The position numbers and the translations under genes are program-made. Positions 63,901-64,000 of a DNA stretch of 64,000 nucleotides are shown here, one piece after another; position 1 is the stretch's first letter, and each line of letters starts with the position of its first letter. Source of the DNA: Acidobacteriota bacterium (lineage in GTDB: Bacteria; Acidobacteriota; Terriglobia; 20CM-2-55-15); contig JAJEEE010000041.1 of the NCBI GenBank assembly GCA_022821145.1, positions 1 through 64,000 on the forward strand. Reading direction: 5' to 3'. The notes under the pieces are model-generated. The model saw nothing but the letters and a program-made list of their open reading frames with translations. It did no database searches and was not told where the DNA came from.

Positions 63901-64000
63901 CCCAGACGTGATGGATGCCGGGCTTGCCGTTGGCGGTCGGGGGGCCTTCGTAGAACGTGAAGTCCGGCGCGCCGGGGCGGTCGAGGCTCTGTTCGAACAC
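60953..64000 (-). CDS. ileS: Isoleucyl-tRNA synthetase, type 2 (5' end outside window)
   Basis: 1015 residues are visible; the N-terminal few tens lie beyond 64000. It is a class Ia synthetase for isoleucine with an editing domain and the long C-terminal domain of type-2 (eukaryote-like) IleRS, seen in [20 protein letters not shown]. KMSKS is [12 protein letters not shown]. The HIGH signature after GPPTANGKP reads GIHH (visible residues 28-31) where HxGH is expected. This GXHH form is known from mupirocin hyper-resistant type-2 enzymes. It has the short zinc/anticodon end [10 protein letters not shown]. No second ileS is in the window. Confidence 0.95.
   Translation of the reverse strand: [1015 protein letters not shown]

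Follow-up and report, generated by a model that had tools for sequence, protein, structure and literature searches.

A single-copy type 2 isoleucyl-tRNA synthetase with a GIHH class I signature throughout an order of Acidobacteriota

The Acidobacteriota genome to which the window belongs (the window being the whole analysed stretch of DNA, 64,000 nucleotides) encodes one isoleucyl-tRNA synthetase (IleRS), a type 2 enzyme in which the class I signature HxGH is replaced by GIHH. The same holds for 11 of 11 genomes of this uncultured order (one family, four genera; the genome catalogue has one genome per species), each with one IleRS of type 2 carrying GIHH. This order-wide presence of GIHH IleRS2 as the sole IleRS is the new observation, and the enzyme itself is a fresh example of a phenomenon published in 2023 (PMC10485003). 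Very probably, the gene is a single-copy housekeeping ileS2 of the described G/AXHH subgroup, working through the published mechanism by homology and acquired together with its motif by the ancestor of the order.

Gene and signature motifs

The following features of the window were annotated:

60953..64000, minus strand: ileS, type 2 isoleucyl-tRNA synthetase (TIGR00392, PF00133, PF08264, PF19302 (DUF5915))
63908..63919, minus strand: class I signature GIHH replacing HxGH, located by alignment columns
62303..62317, minus strand: KMSKS loop reading KMAKS, with Ala confined to this genus among the rows read

The ileS gene is cut by the window but complete on its contig (C31), where it reaches base 64078. 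The product is 1041 aa long with an ATG start and an intact frame; the window part encodes the C-terminal 1015 aa, leaving the start codon about 78 bases outside the window, further along this contig. The class I signature is GGCATCCATCAC (GGC ATC CAT CAC, G-I-H-H), exactly at the positions given for it by an earlier sequence-only reading of the DNA. In an alignment of this IleRS with 16 other IleRS, GIHH shares its columns with HVGH of P. megaterium IleRS2 (PDB 8c8v) and HLGH of IleRS1, so the true signature does not lie elsewhere in the protein, a possibility for which the sequence-only reading had allowed. The other synthetases of the genome are canonical (ValRS HMGH, LeuRS HVGH and a MetRS-like frame HLGH), and hence the signature change is specific to IleRS.

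The KMAKS loop had been described as intact; in fact it is a small departure from the standard KMSKS. Ala occupies the third position in 2 of 110 rows, belonging to the window's species and to its congener (the loop was unread by the pattern in 35 rows), while the remaining rows with a readable loop have KMSK(S/T/R/H). The two lysines in the catalytic core of the motif are kept. Either KMAKS or the active site at large could alter the activity or the Ki.

Assignment to type 2

The full protein scores 937 bits against the TIGR00392 (isoleucyl-tRNA synthetase) cut-off of 621, and its window part scores 918. The domains found are PF00133, PF08264 and PF19302 (DUF5915; 9.5e-52 at residues 819–1013), and no IleRS1 zinc-finger family is present among the domain matches of the 1041-aa protein. 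The identity is 41–57% to IleRS2 outside the order versus 28% to Acidobacteriota IleRS1. In the trees, the split between IleRS2 and IleRS1 is supported (starred), with this enzyme on the IleRS2 side; among solved structures, those of P. megaterium IleRS2 and of Thermus IleRS are closest. The type 2 assignment made earlier is thus upheld by the DUF5915 C-terminus, the lack of an IleRS1 zinc domain among the listed matches and the clustering with IleRS2, and the alignment with IleRS1 and IleRS2 sets, which had been proposed as a check, likewise gave an IleRS2 with GIHH. Gly in the first and His in the third position give the protein the signature that defines the G/AXHH IleRS2 subgroup.

Copy number and gene neighbourhood

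The genome (4.18 Mb in 89 contigs) is 99.33% complete and 0.76% contaminated. A TIGR00392 search of it returned one IleRS, the weaker matches being ValRS, LeuRS and the MetRS-like frame; this search answers the earlier question about a second ileS and agrees with the suggestion that the enzyme may be the only IleRS. Upstream of ileS lie recA and then genes for 3-hydroxyacyl-CoA dehydrogenase, thiolase and TonB; downstream is tRNA-Phe(GAA). The recA gene adjoins ileS in seven genomes of the order (the window's genome, G010, G001, G002, G004, G005 and G006); the other genomes of the order either have too short a contig or showed no recA motif. The setting of ileS is housekeeping and, with recA, primary-metabolism genes and tRNA-Phe around it, lacks the antibiotic-island context, as had been noted from the sequence.

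A MazF/PemK-like toxin gene (PF02452; window 60149–60735, minus strand) adjoins the tRNA-Phe downstream of ileS and overlaps a small upstream gene, which resembles an antitoxin and has no Pfam match. On a contig other than that of ileS, the genome also contains an open frame of 3464 codons for a modular polyketide synthase with two ketosynthase domains (G000:C61:196881-205361).

Distribution in the order and phylum

A second species of the window's genus, separately assembled, has the same GIHH motif. GIHH or GLHH was read in all 80 nearest named genome matches (the best 80 of 342), which comprise four Acidobacteria records matching genomes of this order, the rest being Candidatus Chrysopegis (Kryptonia), Ignavibacteria, Melioribacteraceae and MAGs labelled Bacteroidota.

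Within the phylum, a protein search of a draw of Acidobacteriota genomes at least 90% complete found an IleRS2-like match in 46 of 396. Outside the order, all readable signatures among 25 fetched Acidobacteriota matches are canonical (HVGH, HPGH, HNGH or HYGH). The second residue of HPGH and HNGH falls outside the Ile/Val/Leu/Met/Tyr set of PMC10485003. An Acidobacteriota genome of another family, G040, has two type 2 IleRS, one with GIHH and one with HYGH, at the following loci:

L154, G040:C37:8756-11410: type 2 IleRS
L157, G040:C25:72538-75117: type 2 IleRS

This duo may be a true pair or may reflect MAG contamination (3%).

Canonical-motif IleRS2 (L172–L196) are present in several Acidobacteriota families, and therefore the exchange of IleRS1 and IleRS2 seems to have recurred within the phylum. 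The sampled IleRS1 of the class have the usual DGPPYANGxxHxGH form. A count made with an exact DNA pattern (2 of 297 Acidobacteriota genomes) had indicated that type 2 is nearly confined to this order; it was overturned by the protein search, as the pattern missed HVGH after ANN, HPGH, HNGH and HYGH. The IleRS1 DNA pattern (126 of 297) was too strict and was left out of the counts.

Origin of the enzyme and alternative explanations

In a quick tree (LG+G4, with SH-aLRT as the only support measure and compositionally biased focal rows), the enzymes of all 11 genomes of the order group as a single clade (SH-aLRT 100), next to GXHH IleRS2 of the Kryptonia/Ignavibacteria/Bacteroidota type. A single acquisition of an already-GXHH enzyme by the ancestor of the order, with replacement of IleRS1, appears the likeliest history. 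From these sequence comparisons, we infer a donor near Kryptonia/Ignavibacteria and, likewise, the direction of the transfer. The motif might instead have switched from HXGH to GXHH within this order under local antibiotic pressure. HXGH IleRS2 do occur in other Acidobacteriota lineages, which makes a native type 2 precursor conceivable; however, those enzymes are 35–52% identical over the aligned parts, whereas identity to the closest relatives from outside the order, all of them GXHH, is 51–60%. Moreover, the AU test rejects a tree in which the type 2 enzymes of all Acidobacteriota are held together (p about 2e-9), and parsimony on the tree needs only two motif changes, all of which makes such a switch unlikely.

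Most class I synthetases cannot do without the HIGH histidine, and its loss could point to a damaged or non-catalytic IleRS, or to a signature misread in sequencing or assembly. The protein is nevertheless the sole IleRS of a 99.3%-complete genome and is intact in frame, activity of GXHH enzymes is established (PMC10485003) and the occurrence of GIHH in the separately assembled congener and throughout the rest of the order shows that it is not a base error; damage or error is thus highly improbable. Equally hard to credit is a self-resistance enzyme tied to a cluster for an antibiotic made by this bacterium. The genome does harbor the two-ketosynthase polyketide synthase frame (3464 codons, contig C61), but this is on a different contig, while ileS lies beside recA and primary-metabolism genes and is the sole enzyme, order-wide.

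Mupirocin resistance and significance

The hyper-resistance of the published GXHH subgroup, to which the sequence-only reading had referred, is established by biochemistry on other enzymes (PMC10485003). In the published tree, 86 of 163 IleRS2, spread over two distinct clades of this type, carry G/AXHH (Brkic et al. 2023, PMC10485003), and motif exchange in both directions showed that this motif lifts the mupirocin Ki up to ~1000-fold with activity only mildly affected. In the IleRS2 structures, which have been solved for both motifs, a shifted helix tip admits His at position 3, the N-epsilon2 of which substitutes for that of the missing first His, and hyper-resistance was ascribed to a steric clash of the third-position His with mupirocin (PMC10485003).

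By homology, we infer mupirocin hyper-resistance of the present enzyme. The shifted tip of helix alpha1 would let the position-3 His fit with no displacement of the ATP adenine, the N-epsilon2 of this His would assume the transition-state role of the absent first His, and the same bulky residue would clash with mupirocin, placing the Ki in the millimolar range. The ancestor of the order would have gained the GXHH gene from a lineage near Kryptonia/Ignavibacteria and then lost IleRS1. We consider it moderately probable that a Kryptonia/Ignavibacteria-like lineage passed on a GXHH IleRS2 in one transfer, giving rise to order-wide housekeeping hyper-resistance, and that KMAKS drift in the genus followed. 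If this single-transfer reading is true, intrinsic mupirocin hyper-resistance has been fixed across the order as a housekeeping trait.

A recently described exception to a highly conserved enzyme motif now extends to an Acidobacteriota lineage, as a sole, vertically kept housekeeping copy, which favours the idea that the cost of GXHH is not prohibitive. Within one phylum, eleven GXHH genomes can be set against several HXGH IleRS2 lineages and many with IleRS1, a natural test set for the drivers of type exchange. The known mechanism is unchanged, and the taxonomic and evolutionary interest is modest.

Comparison with known IleRS2

MupA and MupB (NF000257, NF000258) belong to the same type 2 family, and the match to them is nearly full-length, although it scores 841 and 832 bits against curated cut-offs of 1900. 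Plasmid mupA is ~39% identical, and the present enzyme is a chromosomal sole enzyme rather than a second copy; a plasmid search found no close relative of ileS, all matches being below 60% identity. Priestia megaterium IleRS2 (PDB 8c8u/8c8v/8c8w/8c9d) has the same domain order and ~49% identity over 695 aligned residues, but differs in having HVGH in the wild type and in coexisting with IleRS1 in its host.

As in Streptomyces griseus IleRS2 and Deinococcus DrIleRS2 (PMC10485003), a type 2 enzyme has signature residues 1 and 3 exchanged. A sole housekeeping IleRS2 is an arrangement already known among bacterial IleRS2, having been noted in some genomes (PMC10485003). In contrast to the G/AXHH IleRS2 of that study, the enzyme described here has a predicted mupirocin resistance and, in this genus, a KMAKS loop, and belongs to an order of Acidobacteriota, a phylum unnamed in the main text of the paper.
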